This document shows, piece by piece, positions 15,605-60,162 of a stretch of 64,000 nt of DNA. This stretch comes from Pleurocapsa sp. FMAR1 (GTDB lineage: Bacteria; Cyanobacteriota; Cyanobacteriia; Cyanobacteriales; Xenococcaceae). Positions within the stretch are counted from its first letter, which is position 1, and each line of letters opens with the position of its first letter. The stretch is from the NCBI RefSeq assembly GCF_963665995.1, contig NZ_OY762512.1, forward strand, positions 1,612,001 through 1,676,000, written 5' to 3'. Under the pieces are notes generated by a model. It did not search any database. It saw only the letters and a list, made by a program, of their open reading frames with translations, and was not told where the DNA came from. The position numbers and the translations under genes were made by a program.

Positions 15605-15663
15605 ACTTATATTCATCCCTTTGAATGTTGGTCAAAAGGGAAAAAGTTGTTAAGATTTGTAGC

Positions 15664-17412
15664 ATGGCACATTCAAGGCTACAGAAATTAGTCAATTACC
15701 TTCGTCCCTACTGGCGAATGGTTTTATTAGGGGGAGTCGCCCTAGTAATTGTCAATGCTTTAAAGGTTTATATTCCCCTATTAATCCGCGATAGCATCGA
15801 TCAATTGCAGGGAGAGTTTAGTTTTGATCAATTATCTCGCTCTGCATTATGGCTGCTATTTTTGTCAGCGATAATGTGGGGATTTCGGATGTATTCTCGC
15901 GTGTCTATTTTTGGCATAGGTAGACAGGTAGAATTTAGTCTTAAACAGCGAATTTTCCAACATTTACTGACCATTGAACCAGGATATTTTTCGGATAATA
16001 GATCGGGCGATCTGATTAATCGCGCTACTAGTGATGTGGATAATATTCGTCGCTTGGTAGGGTTTGCTCTGTTGAGTTTTATCAACATTATTTTCGCCTA
16101 TGCTTTCACCCTACCAGCGATGCTCAAGATTGACGTGAAGCTTAGTTTATTAGCGGTCGCCGTATATCCAGTCATGTTGATCACGGTACAGTTGTTTAGT
16201 GGCAAGATGCGAAGCTACCAACAAGATGTCCAGGTAGAACTTTCTAATTTGAGTGAGCTAATTCAAGAAGACATGAGTGGCATGGCTTTGATTAGGATTT
16301 ATGCTCAAGAAGGTCAAGAAAGATTAGCATTTAAAGAGAAGAATCAGAACTTATTAGCGGCAAATCTGAGATTAGCTAGAACTAGAAATTTTTTGTTTCC
16401 TATCATCGAAGCTATTTCTTACGTCAGCTTATTAATTCTTTTATGGTTGGGTACAGCGGCGATCGCTAATGGACAAATTACTGTGGGTGACTTTGTTGCC
16501 TTAGTTTTGTTTGTCGAAGGATTAGTATTTCCTACTGCTTTATTAGGTTTTACGATTACGGCATATCAGCAGGGAGAAGTCAGTATCGATCGAGTAGAAG
16601 CAATTACTCAAGCCGAACCCAAAATTAAAAATAGCTCCAACTCCATTATTTTGCCCTTAGAAGACATTCAGGGAGAAATTACCGCACGCAATCTTACTTA
16701 TACTTATCCAGGTACTCACAACCCTGCTCTATATGATTTAAACTTTACGATTAAGCCTGGAGAAACTGTTGCCATTGTCGGCTCAATTGGCTCTGGTAAA
16801 TCTACTCTAGCTAATGCTGTTCCCCGCTTGCTAAATATAGAGCCAGGAGAGCTATTTCTTGATAATTACGACATTACCAAGCTAGATCTAAATACTTTAA
16901 GAAAAGCGATCGCCTATGTACCTCAAGATAGCTTTTTGTTTAGCACTAGTATTAAAAATAATATTCGCTACGGTGAGCCATTGAGTGAAAGTTTGGAAGT
17001 AGAGCAAGCAGCTAAACAGGCTCAAATTCACCCAGAAATTATGTCTTTTCCGCAAGAATACGAAACCTTGGTGGGTGAGCGAGGTATTACTTTATCTGGT
17101 GGTCAAAGACAGCGTACTTCTTTGGCAAGAGCCTTATTAGAAGAAGCCAAAGTATTAATTTTAGATGATGCTCTTTCTAGTGTAGATAATGAAACTGCTA
17201 CCAGAATTCTTAATAGTTTGTCTCCTACAAGAGCTAAAAAAACGGTCATCTTTATCTCTCATCAACTATCAGCAGCGGCAATGTGCGATCGCATTTTAGT
17301 GATGGATGAAGGCAAGATTGTGCAAAATGGCACTCATGAAAGTTTGATTAAAGAATCAGGACTATATCAATCTCTGTGGCAACAGCACCAGTTAAAAGAA
17401 GTCTTGAATTAA
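15664..17412 (+). CDS. ABC exporter (fused permease and ATPase, MsbA/MdlB-like)
   Basis: A half-transporter of about 582 residues from the ATG at 15664 (MAHSRLQKLVNYLRPYW); an in-frame TTG 13 codons upstream is less likely. Six membrane helices precede a complete ATPase: Walker A VGSIGSGKST, Q-loop YVPQDSFLFS, signature LSGGQRQR, Walker B VLILDDALSS and H-loop FISHQLS. The residue after the Walker B Asp is Asp where many exporters have Glu. The substrate cannot be read from sequence. A strong terminator follows at 17477-17509, so it ends the gltA transcript or its own. Confidence 0.9.
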   Translation: MAHSRLQKLVNYLRPYWRMVLLGGVALVIVNALKVYIPLLIRDSIDQLQGEFSFDQLSRSALWLLFLSAIMWGFRMYSRVSIFGIGRQVEFSLKQRIFQHLLTIEPGYFSDNRSGDLINRATSDVDNIRRLVGFALLSFINIIFAYAFTLPAMLKIDVKLSLLAVAVYPVMLITVQLFSGKMRSYQQDVQVELSNLSELIQEDMSGMALIRIYAQEGQERLAFKEKNQNLLAANLRLARTRNFLFPIIEAISYVSLLILLWLGTAAIANGQITVGDFVALVLFVEGLVFPTALLGFTITAYQQGEVSIDRVEAITQAEPKIKNSSNSIILPLEDIQGEITARNLTYTYPGTHNPALYDLNFTIKPGETVAIVGSIGSGKSTLANAVPRLLNIEPGELFLDNYDITKLDLNTLRKAIAYVPQDSFLFSTSIKNNIRYGEPLSESLEVEQAAKQAQIHPEIMSFPQEYETLVGERGITLSGGQRQRTSLARALLEEAKVLILDDALSSVDNETATRILNSLSPTRAKKTVIFISHQLSAAAMCDRILVMDEGKIVQNGTHESLIKESGLYQSLWQQHQLKEVLN

Positions 17413-55211: not shown

Positions 55212-56402
55212 ATGACTGTTTCTCCTCACAAAAAAGCCAAGGCACTTAAGCCAGGTAGTCGTCGTCCTGCTAAAGAACTGTGTAGTGAATGTGGACTCTG
55301 CGATACATATTATGTTCATTATGTTAAAGAAGCCTGTGCTTTTCTCAATCAACAGATTGCTGAATTAGAAACAGTTGCTCATGGACGTAGCCGTGACTTA
55401 GATAATAAGGACGAATGGTATTTTGGCGTTAGTCAAGAAATGATGGCTGCGCGGAACTCAAAACCGATTGAGGGAGCGCAATGGACAGGAATCGTTAGTG
55501 CGATCGCCTGTGAAATGTTAGAACAGGGACTGGTTGAAGGGGTAGTTTGTGTACAAAACACCCCCGAAGATCGTTTTCAACCAATGCCAGTAATTGCCCG
55601 TACTCCCCAAGAGGTTTTGGCAGCCAAGGTAAACAAACCCACCCTTTCTCCTAACTTAAATGTCTTAGAACAAATCGAACAGTCGGGGATGAAACGTTTG
55701 CTGGTCATTGGCGTAGGCTGTCAGATTCAGGCACTAAGAGCCGTAGAGCAGGAATTAGGTCTAGAAAAACTCTATGTCTTGGGTACACCCTGCGTTGATA
55801 ACGTCAGTCGTCAAGGGTTGCAGAAGTTTCTCGATACAACCAGTCGTTCTCCAGAAACAGTAGTGCATTATGAATTTATGCAGGACTTTCGGATTCACTT
55901 TAAACATGAAGATGGTTCGATTGAAAAAGTCCCTTTCTTCGGTTTAAAAACTAATCAGCTAAAAGATGTTTTTGCTCCTTCGTGTATGAGTTGCTTTGAT
56001 TACGTCAATTCCTTGGCAGATTTGGTTGTGGGCTATATGGGTGCGCCTTTTGGTTGGCAATGGATTGTAGTTCGCAACCAGACTGGTAAAGAAATGCTGA
56101 ATTTAGTTGAAGATCGCCTAGATACTCAGCCTGTGATGTCTCAAGGCGATCGCACTTCTGCTGTACAGCAAAGTATTCCTGCTTATGATAAGGGGGTCAC
56201 CTTACCTATGTGGGCTGCAAAAATGATGGGAGTTGTCATCGAGCGTATTGGTCCTAAAGGATTAGAATATGCCCGTTTTTCCATTGATTCTCACTTTACT
56301 CGCAACTATATTTATCTCAAACGCAACTATCCTCAGAAATTAGAACAGCACGTGCCTGATTACGCCAAAAAAATTGTTGGGCAATATAAATTGCCTGAAT
56401 AG
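55212..56402 (+). CDS. bciB: Divinyl (proto)chlorophyllide 8-vinyl reductase, F420H2-dehydrogenase beta type (BciB)
   Basis: 396 residues matching Synechocystis Slr1923, which reduces the C8 vinyl group in chlorophyll synthesis using ferredoxin. Iron-sulfur ligands: ELCSECGLCDTYY near the start and SCMSCFDYVN at about residue 258. Blocks GVGCQIQALRAVEQELGL and LADLVVGYMGAPFGWQWIVV are family-typical. An FAD-binding enzyme by family knowledge. The RPAKELCSECGLC N-terminus is hard to mistake. ATG at 55212. Confidence 0.95.
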   Translation: MTVSPHKKAKALKPGSRRPAKELCSECGLCDTYYVHYVKEACAFLNQQIAELETVAHGRSRDLDNKDEWYFGVSQEMMAARNSKPIEGAQWTGIVSAIACEMLEQGLVEGVVCVQNTPEDRFQPMPVIARTPQEVLAAKVNKPTLSPNLNVLEQIEQSGMKRLLVIGVGCQIQALRAVEQELGLEKLYVLGTPCVDNVSRQGLQKFLDTTSRSPETVVHYEFMQDFRIHFKHEDGSIEKVPFFGLKTNQLKDVFAPSCMSCFDYVNSLADLVVGYMGAPFGWQWIVVRNQTGKEMLNLVEDRLDTQPVMSQGDRTSAVQQSIPAYDKGVTLPMWAAKMMGVVIERIGPKGLEYARFSIDSHFTRNYIYLKRNYPQKLEQHVPDYAKKIVGQYKLPE

Positions 56403-56462
56403 TATTTTGGTTAGGAAAATATTAAATTAAGAGCTATTGCTCCCCAAGAAACTGGTTTTCTT

Positions 56463-56653
56463 ACAGTGTTTAATTGACGTTCGGTAGAAAGTAAAAAAAA
56501 CTAATTCGTTTTCTCTATCAAAAAATATCTCGAACTGCTGGAATTAATCCTCAGGATTTAGAAATTACTATTTTTGAAACTCCAAAAGCCAACTGGGGAA
56601 TTCGAGGAATACCAGCAGATGAGCTAGATCTAAATTACAAAGTAGATGTTTAA
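56463..56653 (+). pseudogene. Remnant of a tautomerase-family gene
   Basis: The last 51 codons from 56501 (LIRFLYQKISRTAGINPQDL, EITIFETPKANWGIRGIPAD, LNYKVDV, then stop at 56651-56653) are a clean C-terminus of cyanobacterial tautomerase family proteins. Before it, RSVESKK is in another frame across an A8 run (56493-56500), and a TGA (56475-56477) falls where FEGRSVE is expected, reading FN-stop-RSVE. No start can be seen. A dead gene with a stop and a frameshift. Confidence 0.82.
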
Positions 56654-56673
56654 GTAATTTTTGAGACTTAGTT

Positions 56674-57447
56674 TTAAAATTGATCTTTCATGCCCCGAAT
56701 ACGACCAAATACTTTTGCTGGTTCTTTCATTTTGGCAGTAGTTTGTAAAGTTTCTTCATCCCAACGTAAAAAAGGATTGGTTTGCTTTTCTACACCCAAT
56801 AAGGATGGAACAGTAGCGATTCCTTGGCTACGAGCCTGTTGTACCTCTTGATATCTGCTGTGTAAATTTAAATTATCTCGATCTACGCTTAGAGCAAATT
56901 TTAAATTATTGAGAGTGTATTCATGAGCGCACCACACGCGAGTATTATCAGGAAGCTGGCGCAATTTACCAATAGAATCAACCATTTGAGCGGCAGTACC
57001 TTCAAACAACCTGCCACATCCACCTGCAAAAATTGTATCACCACAGAATAATTCTCCTGTTTCTGCTGGGGTTGTAGGCGGAAAGTAATAGGCGATATGA
57101 CCAGAAGTATGACCAGGCACGAAAAATACTTGACCTGTTTTGCTAGCAAATTCGACCGTATCTCCCTCTTTTAGAAATATCTGCTGGTGGGGAATTCTAC
57201 CTTTATCCTCAGCACCACCATAAACACAAAGATCGGGGAAATGTTTAATCAATTTATTGTTGCCACCCACATGATCCCAATGATGATGGGTATTGAAAAT
57301 AGCGATTAATTGAGCATCAATGGTTGCTAAATAGTCCAATACAGGATCGGCTACTGCGGGATCTACTACCGCAGCGGTTTTTTGCAAAGGATCGTACAAA
57401 ACAAAGATATAGTTATCTGCTAAAGCAGGAATACGCTTAATTTCCAT
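56674..57447 (-). CDS. gloB: Hydroxyacylglutathione hydrolase (glyoxalase II)
   Basis: 257 residues. Metallo-beta-lactamase fold: FNTHHHWDHVGGN carries the two-metal HxHxDH site, FVPGHTSGHIAY and FCGDTIFAGGCGRLFEGT follow, and CAHEYTLNNLKFAL is the glutathione-site region. Completes methylglyoxal detoxification. The C-terminal helical region (LLGVEKQTNPFLRWDEE) is present. ATG at 57447. Confidence 0.95.
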   Translation of the reverse strand: MEIKRIPALADNYIFVLYDPLQKTAAVVDPAVADPVLDYLATIDAQLIAIFNTHHHWDHVGGNNKLIKHFPDLCVYGGAEDKGRIPHQQIFLKEGDTVEFASKTGQVFFVPGHTSGHIAYYFPPTTPAETGELFCGDTIFAGGCGRLFEGTAAQMVDSIGKLRQLPDNTRVWCAHEYTLNNLKFALSVDRDNLNLHSRYQEVQQARSQGIATVPSLLGVEKQTNPFLRWDEETLQTTAKMKEPAKVFGRIRGMKDQF

Positions 57448-57602
57448 GTTGAGAAGGTTTTATGAGGATTATACTCTCGACGTTTTTAGTAACTGTATTT
57501 CATCATATTAGATAAATACTCGGTTATCTTAGTACAGATAATAATTCTAAGTTACAAGGTTTTGTTATTAATAACAAATAATGTGCAAAATCTAAATAAA
57601 TT

Positions 57603-59666
57603 ATGTTTAACAACTCAACTAATAAATTTTTATTTGATCTAGCCAAAAAAAAGCCTATTTATTTTTTTACATCATTTTTTCTAAGTATAATTAGTGGTTT
57701 ATTGAATATAATAGGAACTGTTTGCTTGATTCCTATACTATTTATTATCTTAGACAGCAAACAGCAAAACAATCAAATTAATCAATCAAATATATTTGAC
57801 AATTTTTTTGCTTCATTTAGTAGTTTAACAGGAGAATATAAATTAGAAGTTATTCTTGTTTTGATGTTTGTAGTAATTGTTTTGAAAAATTGCGCCACTT
57901 ATTTAAATTATATAGTAAATATTAAACACACTAGGTATTTAGTCTATCAAATGAAAAGTAAAGGCTATAATTTGCTTTCTAGAGTGAATTTAAATTACTA
58001 TCAAAATAATAAGACAGGAGATATATTATTTAAGTTAAATCGAGAGATAGACAAAACGGCGATCGCCATCAAAAGCTGTCAAAATATATTAATTATTTCA
58101 ACTATTATTATTATTCTGACTATTTTCCTTCTATTTATATCTTGGCAATTAACTTTTATCTGTATATTTCTTTTAGGGTTAATTGCTCTAATCAATCAAT
58201 TTATTGTTACCATCGCTCAAAAAGCAGCAACAATACTATCTCAAAAGTCTAAAACTTATAGTCGCAAATCGATAGAATTTTTAACAGGGATTCGCTCTAT
58301 TAAAACTATTGGTAATGAAACTAGAGAATATCAATCGATAACTCGACTAATTAAGGACAAAGATCGGGCGCAATTAAATACTTTAGCAGCCTCAGCAATA
58401 ATCAGCCCTATAAACGAAATTCTAGGTATGATAATGATTGCAGCCCTACTAATTATATTCCCCTACTTATATAACCAATCAATCCACAACCTAGCATTAA
58501 TTTTCTTAACTTATTTAGTAGTTTTATGCAGGTTGTTACCTTTTTTTTGTCAACTAAATAATGCTCGTACTCAATTTTATAATAGTATTGCTAGCGCAGA
58601 AATAGTTGCCAATTTCTTAAAGGAAACTGATAAGCCTATGCTTAAATCAGGAACGATTAAGTTTATAGAATTAAGTTCTGGTATAGAGTTTCAAAAAGTG
58701 ACTTTTGCTTATCCTAATCACGCGCAAATAATTCTTGAGAAAGTTGATTTGTGGATTCCTCAAGGGCAGACGATCGCTTTAGTTGGTTCGTCTGAAATAG
58801 GTAAATTAATAATTACCGAACTATTACCAAGATTTCATGAGCCAATAGATGGTCAAATTTTAATAGATGGTAAAAATATTGCTGAATATGATATTACAAG
58901 CTTGAGAAAAGCGATCGCCATAGTTAATAGTAATACATTTCTGTTTAATAATTCTCTGGCATATAATATTACCTACGGATTAAAAAATATTAGCGAATTA
59001 GACATTATTAATGCTGTTAAAAAAGCAAATTTTTATGAATTTGTTAGTCAATTACCAGATGGCTTAAATACAGAAATTGGAGTAAACGGTGTCTTACTTA
59101 CTGAAGGACAAAAACAAAGATTGGCGATCGCTAGAGCTATATTACATGATGCCAAAATTTTAATTATTGATGAATCTAGCCTGGAAATAGATATTTTTGA
59201 AGATTTCTTAGTTCAAGAAACAATCAAAGAGTTATGTCGCGATCGCACAACCTTAATTATCGCTCAAAGGTTGACTACTATTCAACAAGCCGATCAAATA
59301 ATTGTCTTAAATAAAGGTCGAGTAATTGAAGTTGGTACTCATGCAGAATTACTTCGTCAGGAAGATTTTTATAATCGTTGGTATTTAATGCAGTTCAAAA
59401 CCAATAATCAGTCTCGTCAACTAAAATTGGCTCAAAAAATTGCTAAAAAATTAGCTCATCAAACTCAGGGTAATCTTTCTACTGAAATTCGTCAGAATTT
59501 TGATTCACTTCTAAACTATATGCAGTTGTTCAACGAAGAAATTTCTCAAGATGATTTAGAAGAAAAAATTTTGGATGAATCATATCAATCGGCTAAAGAT
59601 ATGTTAGCTAGTCTCAAAGAATATGAACGTAAAATTTCTCGTGACCCCGATCATCCAAATTTATAA
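57603..59666 (+). CDS. ABC exporter-like protein with degenerate ATPase motifs
   Basis: 687 residues: a six-helix membrane domain (about 15-330), an ATPase-like domain (about 360-600) and a helical C-terminal extension of about 85 residues. Several catalytic residues are changed: the Walker A Ser/Thr is Leu402 (GSSEIGKLI; Lys401 remains), the Q-loop Gln is Ser443 (VNSNTFLF), the signature third position Gly is Glu501 (LTEGQ) and the H-loop His is Gln555 (IIAQRLTT). Walker B is intact (IIDESS). It may be a non-hydrolysing half or a structural/regulatory protein. Very AT-rich, with no partner ABC gene adjacent. The frame is uninterrupted over 2 kb, against simple decay. Confidence 0.88.
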   Translation: MFNNSTNKFLFDLAKKKPIYFFTSFFLSIISGLLNIIGTVCLIPILFIILDSKQQNNQINQSNIFDNFFASFSSLTGEYKLEVILVLMFVVIVLKNCATYLNYIVNIKHTRYLVYQMKSKGYNLLSRVNLNYYQNNKTGDILFKLNREIDKTAIAIKSCQNILIISTIIIILTIFLLFISWQLTFICIFLLGLIALINQFIVTIAQKAATILSQKSKTYSRKSIEFLTGIRSIKTIGNETREYQSITRLIKDKDRAQLNTLAASAIISPINEILGMIMIAALLIIFPYLYNQSIHNLALIFLTYLVVLCRLLPFFCQLNNARTQFYNSIASAEIVANFLKETDKPMLKSGTIKFIELSSGIEFQKVTFAYPNHAQIILEKVDLWIPQGQTIALVGSSEIGKLIITELLPRFHEPIDGQILIDGKNIAEYDITSLRKAIAIVNSNTFLFNNSLAYNITYGLKNISELDIINAVKKANFYEFVSQLPDGLNTEIGVNGVLLTEGQKQRLAIARAILHDAKILIIDESSLEIDIFEDFLVQETIKELCRDRTTLIIAQRLTTIQQADQIIVLNKGRVIEVGTHAELLRQEDFYNRWYLMQFKTNNQSRQLKLAQKIAKKLAHQTQGNLSTEIRQNFDSLLNYMQLFNEEISQDDLEEKILDESYQSAKDMLASLKEYERKISRDPDHPNL

Positions 59667-59670
59667 ATAG

Positions 59671-60162
59671 TTAATCGCTGATTTTTGCTAGTTTGTGCAA
59701 AGCACTATCGCTAACGCGACAAGTACGCCAGTCGGGTAATACTTTTGCTCCCATACTTTCATAAAAAGCGATCGCACTTTGATTCCAGTCTAAAACATTC
59801 CACTCCAGTCGCCCTGCATCTCTTTCTACCGCCAACTTACCTAAATACGACAACATCGCCTTTGCCATTCCGCGACGACGATAGTCTGGTAACACGAACA
59901 AGTCTTCAAGGTAAATGCCTGGTTTGGTTAAAAACGTCGAATAATTAGCGAAAAACAGAGCAAAGCCGACTATTTTATGTTCGCACTCAGCTACAATAGC
60001 CTCAGCATTAACTGGACTGCCAAATAAGTCTGACCGTAATTCTTTAGCTGTCCCTGTTACTTGATGTGCTAGTTTCTCATATTCGGCTAATGCTTGAATC
60101 AAGCTAAAAATATCTGATACATCGTTAGCAACAGCCTGACGAATTTTAAAATCTGAAGTCAT
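59671..60162 (-). CDS. GNAT-family N-acetyltransferase
   Basis: 163 residues. Acetyl-CoA-binding motif VLPDYRRRGMAKAMLSYL, preceded by GIYLEDLF and followed by LEWNVLDWNQSAIAFYESMG. Resembles diamine (spermidine/thialysine) N-acetyltransferases most, judged from the EDLFV and WNVLDWN blocks; the substrate is not proven. It ends 4 bases from the convergent ABC-like gene. Confidence 0.9.
   Translation of the reverse strand: MTSDFKIRQAVANDVSDIFSLIQALAEYEKLAHQVTGTAKELRSDLFGSPVNAEAIVAECEHKIVGFALFFANYSTFLTKPGIYLEDLFVLPDYRRRGMAKAMLSYLGKLAVERDAGRLEWNVLDWNQSAIAFYESMGAKVLPDWRTCRVSDSALHKLAKISD

Follow-up and report, generated by a model that had tools for sequence, protein, structure and literature searches.

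What keeps the gene of an ABC exporter open once the catalytic residues of its motor have been replaced? The question is raised by a frame at positions 57603-59666 (+) of the window, the whole 64,000-nucleotide stretch of Pleurocapsa sp. FMAR1 DNA that we analysed. The frame starts with ATG and, as the initial annotation had stated, encodes 687 aa with no internal stop; Pfam places ABC_membrane and ABC_tran, both over cut-off, in one chain. The transmembrane domain (TMD) spans aa 1-345 (PF00664; 57603..58637, +) and the nucleotide-binding domain (NBD) aa 361-590 (PF00005; 58683..59372, +), with about 97 further residues beyond ABC_tran. A full-length structure model (pLDDT 79.9, pTM 0.67), whose input alignment consisted mainly of canonical relatives (A1: 47 of 81 proteins), has MsbA (8tso) as its best structural match, with an E value of 1.7e-38. 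The best curated NCBIfam model is HepA_fam_ABC (HepA, NF045513), which the protein matches at 424.2 bits, below the cut-off of 725. A Brasilonema record is the sole named record to match, at 32%, and the organism's own genome holds 52 other matches to the exporter protein, mostly in the ATPase domain. The gene is bracketed by two syntenic anchors identified by Pfam, a glyoxalase II (hydroxyacylglutathione hydrolase) gene upstream (56674..57447, -) and a GNAT acetyltransferase gene downstream (59671..60162, -), the latter lying directly downstream in 5 of the 9 genus loci. Among the window's 2-kb blocks, G+C is lowest at 56001-60000, over the exporter gene (0.348 and 0.329; at least 0.364 in the rest), and no RNA family was found in the window at gathering score.

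Four substitutions in the ATPase motifs had been reported from this frame, and alignment shows each to be correctly placed. The Walker A Ser/Thr is Leu402, within the remnant GSSEIGKLI (aa 395-403; 58785..58811, +); the Q-loop Gln is Ser443 (58929..58931, +); the first signature Gly is Glu501, within the remnant LTEGQ (aa 499-503; 59097..59111, +); and the H-loop His is Gln555 (59265..59267, +). Walker B Asp523-Glu524 (59169..59174, +) and the A-loop Tyr370 (58710..58712, +) are retained, again as first described. Beyond these, we found Walker A Gly398 changed to Glu and Thr403 to Ile, with Lys401 kept, and signature Ser500 changed to Thr. In total, 7 of 16 catalytic positions are altered, and the protein lacks the intact set of Walker A, Q-loop, LSGGQ, Walker B Glu and H-loop.

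Is this one damaged gene or the state of a lineage? We read the motifs of 96 orthologues, 9 in the genus and 87 outside it; 81 proteins were read first, followed by the 15 remaining orthologue-level matches (about 440 bits or more), while second-copy matches near 365 bits and HepA-like matches near 300 bits were left out as non-orthologues. The tree, identities and omega values given below rest on the first 81 proteins or subsets of them, without the added 15. Cyanobacteria widely carry orthologues of the exporter, most of which share its C-terminal extension: a match at E up to 1e-90 occurs in 79 of the 386 phylum genomes (in a few cases only a HepA-like paralogue), and one at E up to 1e-110 in 9 of 14 genomes from the family beyond the genus. 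Within the genus, 9 of 13 genomes carry a full-length, stop-free orthologue and 4 have none; the other eight orthologues are 44-58% identical to the FMAR1 protein. One canonical orthologue, L226 (G165), reaches 872 aa, exceeding the next longest that we read by about 100 aa, and G165 also has a more distant second match, in a frame of 893 aa.

None of the 87 orthologues outside the genus deviates at any of the 16 catalytic positions, whereas all nine inside it do, at 7, 3, 3, 5, 5, 10, 5, 5 and 3 positions, a distribution that argues for more than chance. The first signature Gly is lost in every one of the nine (E, P, P, Q, D, Q, Q, E, A). The H-loop His is lost in eight, and the ninth (G005) has the Walker B Glu changed to Gln. 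The initial annotation had asked whether the substitutions are conserved as a subfamily. Loss of the motifs is indeed common to the genus, however, the replacement residues differ and no two species are alike. The suggested pseudo-ATPase is thus supported by the motif readings and would extend to all nine orthologues rather than to one genome. Proteins of this type would be expected to hydrolyse no ATP and, we presume, to transport nothing.

Loss of hydrolysis need not mean loss of ATP binding, and in one alternative the NBD has kept ATP binding in most species and the protein is a switch that opens or closes without turnover. The A-loop Tyr370 and Walker A Lys401 are kept in all nine proteins, and the Walker A consensus together with the A-loop Tyr is intact in six of them. 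G005 even carries the Walker B Glu to Gln change, a substitution used in the field to trap ATP. However, Walker A is altered in the FMAR1 protein, G004 and G005, and absence of the signature Gly from all nine should weaken the ATP sandwich. We consider such a switch very improbable.

A second alternative is that the protein is the degenerate half of a heterodimeric exporter, in which another half-transporter supplies the working site; the initial annotation had likewise suggested that the membrane half may have another ABC protein as its partner. Many heterodimeric exporters with a single dead site are known (e.g. PMC12038006); in TM287/288, BmrCD and MsRv1273c/72c, one NBD has changes in catalytic or signature residues, as it does in the FMAR1 protein. 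The window itself holds another exporter (15625-17412, +; L008, 595 aa) with a normal Walker A and signature and a Walker B Asp-Asp (ILILDDALSSVD), Asp replacing the usual catalytic Glu, which looks like a degenerate-site half-transporter from its sequence. Unlike in those heterodimers, though, the one NBD here is hit on both faces, with species-specific residues and no linked partner gene. Both faces are hit in all nine orthologues, through the signature Gly, which would complete the site of a partner, on one side and the protein's own site (H-loop His in eight, Walker B Glu in the ninth) on the other, so that neither composite site would be normal. Replacements shared by no two species also speak against such pairing, and in the nine genus loci none of the three frames to either side was labelled as an ABC gene (fewer frames were available in G009, at a contig end). 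Together this makes a heterodimeric role improbable, and cooperation with another ABC protein is disfavoured.

In an IQ-TREE tree of 81 proteins, the nine genus proteins form one clade with a support of 86 (below the usual 95) and a stem of 0.41, nested inside its family (18 proteins, support 98). Their mean distance from the family ancestor is about 1.22, against 0.49 for the other nine family proteins, roughly 2.5 times as far. A transferred or paralogous origin of the genus exporter was considered and is disfavoured by both synteny and tree.

The gene neighbourhood has changed in the same genus. Outside it, 85 of 87 loci have a group-1 glycosyltransferase gene no more than two frames upstream of the ABC gene (70 of 72 plus 15 of 15, with one of the 15 on the other strand; labels are from BLASTP, two verified by Pfam). 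A second glycosyltransferase lies downstream in 33 of 72 such loci (one on the other strand, one with an intervening frame), and 23 of the 72 have a divergent glyoxalase II gene no more than three frames upstream. Inside the genus, all nine exporters have the glyoxalase gene immediately upstream, and neither the upstream nor the downstream glycosyltransferase is left at any of the nine loci. The upstream enzyme has no orthologue in the 13 genus genomes searched, two of which are 81-82% complete (best match 115 bits, 30% identity). The same search returned 650-913 bits in five of six family relatives, where 913 is the source of the query sequence; the sixth relative, G414 (81% complete), gave no match. 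Two canonical proteins, L092 (G414) and L151 (G200), keep all motifs without an adjacent glycosyltransferase, which argues that loss of the neighbour need not kill the motor. At the canonical locus L119:2025-10897, the exporter is part of a series of genes whose products have glycosyltransferase domains, GT2 and GT10 (fucosyltransferase) among them, which points to a glycan as the ancestral cargo.

If the pathway was lost, the exporter may simply be on its way out, its frames intact only because limited time has passed. In favour of this reading are the normal motifs of the relatives, the absence of the glycosyltransferase from the genus, and relaxed selection on the motor. Within the catalytic windows (58 codons), codon models gave an omega of 0.261 in the genus and 0.015 in relatives, compared with 0.204 and 0.103 in the rest of the NBD, 0.314 and 0.149 (family relatives) in the TMD, and 0.185 and 0.213 in the tail; these values are rough because the sequences are highly diverged, with synonymous sites close to saturation, and they come from region borders chosen with the alignment in view and trees fitted per region. 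Compared with the relatives, constraint in the genus is thus relaxed some seventeenfold in the catalytic windows and some twofold in the TMD and the remaining NBD, and the tail shows no relaxation. A general acceleration of the genus was considered as a cause and is disfavoured by the neighbouring glyoxalase, whose omega is 0.101 in the nine genus sequences and 0.155 in four relatives and whose identity is 0.81 and 0.76, respectively; in the same sets, the ABC protein has identities of 0.49 and 0.66.

Decay also finds a parallel in the genus. In three genomes (G002, G003 and G006; L169, L170 and L171) the whole exporter is gone and the glyoxalase and GNAT genes lie 8 bp apart, and a tblastn search of 12-13 kb around the locus with 18 family proteins found no relic of it (best E 0.39). 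The three form one clade in the glyoxalase tree (support 100), placed inside the genus beside G011/G012 through weak nodes (56 and 47). This clean deletion indicates that the exporter is dispensable in some members of the genus. G001, the fourth genome without an exporter match, is 81% complete and gave no glyoxalase match either.

Against decay, all nine frames are open despite high divergence, and omega is well below 1 in every region. With omega fixed at 1, the log-likelihood in the genus drops by 41 to 213 units depending on the region, a gap that is not a one-parameter test since that model also fixed kappa at 2. For the nine genus proteins, nine family relatives and the remaining 63 proteins, mean pairwise identity is 0.43, 0.57 and 0.50 in the TMD and 0.53, 0.77 and 0.72 in the NBD, as opposed to 0.64, 0.37 and 0.35 in the tail linker and 0.65, 0.51 and 0.49 in the hairpin that follows it. 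Subtracting NBD identity from tail identity gives +0.114 [0.042, 0.184] for the genus, -0.303 [-0.383, -0.222] for family relatives and -0.277 [-0.348, -0.205] for the remaining proteins (column bootstrap). Constraint is inverted in the genus: the tail is guarded more tightly than the motor, and it is better conserved than the tail of relatives whose motifs are intact. The initial annotation had named normal homologues together with relaxed selection as the mark of simple decay. The relatives are normal and the motor is relaxed, however, simple decay is disfavoured because omega stays well below 1 throughout and the tail is not relaxed, and we regard it as unlikely. Judged from alignments and codon models, catalytic residues have been lost while the frame stays under purifying selection, which is the pattern of a pseudoenzyme.

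What, then, is the tail? The initial annotation's additional helical C-terminus proves to be a real, conserved extension (aa 591-687), with helices predicted at 604-620, 624-644 and 650-680 in the full-length model at modest confidence (pLDDT about 50-72). We divide it into a linker (aa 591-625; 59373..59477, +), conserved within the genus by pairwise identity, and a DHp-like (HisKA) helical hairpin (aa 626-678; 59478..59636, +). When ten tails were scanned alone, three exceeded the Pfam HisKA cut-off of 26.9 (38.5, 34.2 and 30.1 bits) and five fell below it; those of the FMAR1 protein (up to E 10) and L024 gave no HisKA match. In the tail alignment (A2: 39 of 76 tails, long tandem tails left out), 30 of 39 have a HisKA match at E up to 0.01, the FMAR1 tail not among them. 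The latter is linked to HisKA through its relatives only, as it has no direct match of its own. Using hhalign, we compared tail profiles with 24 of the 43 HisKA domains over cut-off in the same genome (A3). The 39-tail family profile matched at 98.4% (E 8.5e-15) and the nine-tail genus profile at 83.2% (E 8.7e-6), both in register with the H-box. By contrast, 40 column shuffles reached at most 29.3% (family) and 3.3% (genus), and reversal gave 0.5% and 1.3%. By profile comparison, then, the family's tail is homologous to HisKA.

The phospho-acceptor position of the hairpin, Thr627 in the FMAR1 protein, is His in none of the nine genus orthologues, and outside the genus it is His in 23 of 87 and Tyr in 56 of 87; five of these 87 have no tail. 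By Pfam, no HATPase (the kinase half) is present in the FMAR1 frame, which ends after the hairpin. These alignments identify the tail as a DHp-type dimerisation hairpin, mostly without the acceptor, that ends an exporter. In the relatives' family f18 (L100, L102, L114 and L119), there are often two tandem DHp-like hairpins, the first often with the His kept.

Modelled alone, the tail forms a hairpin (pLDDT 76, pTM 0.46), and a fold search with this model found no match at E up to 0.001. Among the weak matches, kinases hold ranks 1, 3-6, 8, 9 and 11, and kinase DHps near the top include GacS first and RetS-GacS third, along with LOV kinases, CpxA and ERS1. Dust-mite allergens rank among them at 2, 7 and 10, which makes the list only suggestive.

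We hypothesize that the genus exporter is an orphaned flippase turned pseudo-ATPase and kept as a membrane-anchored, DHp-like scaffold or regulator, and we think this account is probably, though by no means certainly, correct. Its ancestor would have been a cyanobacterial MsbA/HepA-like exporter beside a glycosyltransferase, with a C-terminal DHp domain, and was probably a glycan or glycolipid flippase. MsbA is the lipid A flippase and HepA a heterocyst polysaccharide exporter. The FMAR1 protein resembles exporters of this type in its MsbA-like fold and in having HepA_fam_ABC as its best NCBIfam model, and its canonical orthologues adjoin glycosyltransferases; it differs from them in its sub-cut-off HepA score, dead motifs, DHp-like tail and lack of a glycosyltransferase at the locus. 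In the ancestor of the genus, loss of the glycosyltransferase may have made the ATPase dispensable, the signature Gly and H-loop His would then have been lost, and each species would have drifted further, an order of events that we infer. The protein would have been spared decay, with its membrane and NBD folds held under purifying selection and the DHp-like tail now the best conserved part. We consider it most likely to be a membrane-anchored dimeric scaffold or regulator whose tail would bind a partner, for example a histidine kinase through a DHp of the same subfamily; a scaffold of this kind would work without hydrolysing ATP and without accepting phosphate at the usual position. Of the options in the initial annotation, a non-transporting scaffold fits the sequence data best, with the addition of a DHp-type tail.

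Kinase binding by the tail, and with it a signalling role, may be read by comparison with known systems. RetS and GacS are kinases that pair through their DHps (PMC12148439), and the pseudokinase ChrS forms heterodimers with HrrS (PMC9491836). In both, one kinase or pseudokinase can regulate another by pairing, and the weak top matches of the tail model include GacS and RetS-GacS. There, however, the DHp is part of a kinase, whereas here it ends an ABC exporter and has neither a CA domain nor an acceptor His. SLC5-STAC histidine kinases (CbrA, CrbS) are described as a transporter fold joined to kinase-type signalling domains, like the present family, although theirs is a solute symporter rather than an ABC protein and they carry the kinase. 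A more specific proposal is that the genus protein is a non-transporting, membrane-anchored two-component regulator whose motor died with the glycan pathway and whose DHp platform pairs with a histidine kinase in the manner of RetS. We hold this tentatively, as a possibility that is more doubtful than not. Were it true, the motif-intact relatives with a DHp tail would be flux-reporting flippases.

Genus-wide loss of catalysis in a full-length ABC exporter that is still under selection looks unusual. Sequence shows the gene with its motor intact and with it dead, as well as which pathway gene is missing and which region has taken over the constraint; the case offers a way to test directly how transporters turn into pseudoenzymes. 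A further outcome is a family of exporters that carry a histidine-kinase dimerisation domain, a combination of which we found no description in the titles and abstract openings covered, among which most subscription journals are not represented.

Candidates for a partner come from the genome itself. Among its DHps, the tail most resembles those of a 572-aa kinase (57.8 bits), a 261-aa kinase-like protein (50.1) and a protein near 3841318 (40.6), followed by a gap down to 25.6 bits. These three are candidates for pairing, or may simply be kin of the source of the tail domain. Co-occurrence did not single out a partner: G000:C1:2349675-2351390 (22 of 24 genomes, with a partial match in G009) and 778697-779479 (23 of 24) are also found in genomes that lack the exporter. 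As this holds for both nearest kinases, their presence is uninformative on partnership. The 261-aa protein (G000:C1:778697-779479; L204:1477-2259), whose matches in the 23 genomes are at E up to 1e-25, has a good HisKA domain but a catalytic part in which inspection by eye shows no G boxes, and it is a candidate for a conserved cyanobacterial pseudo-kinase.
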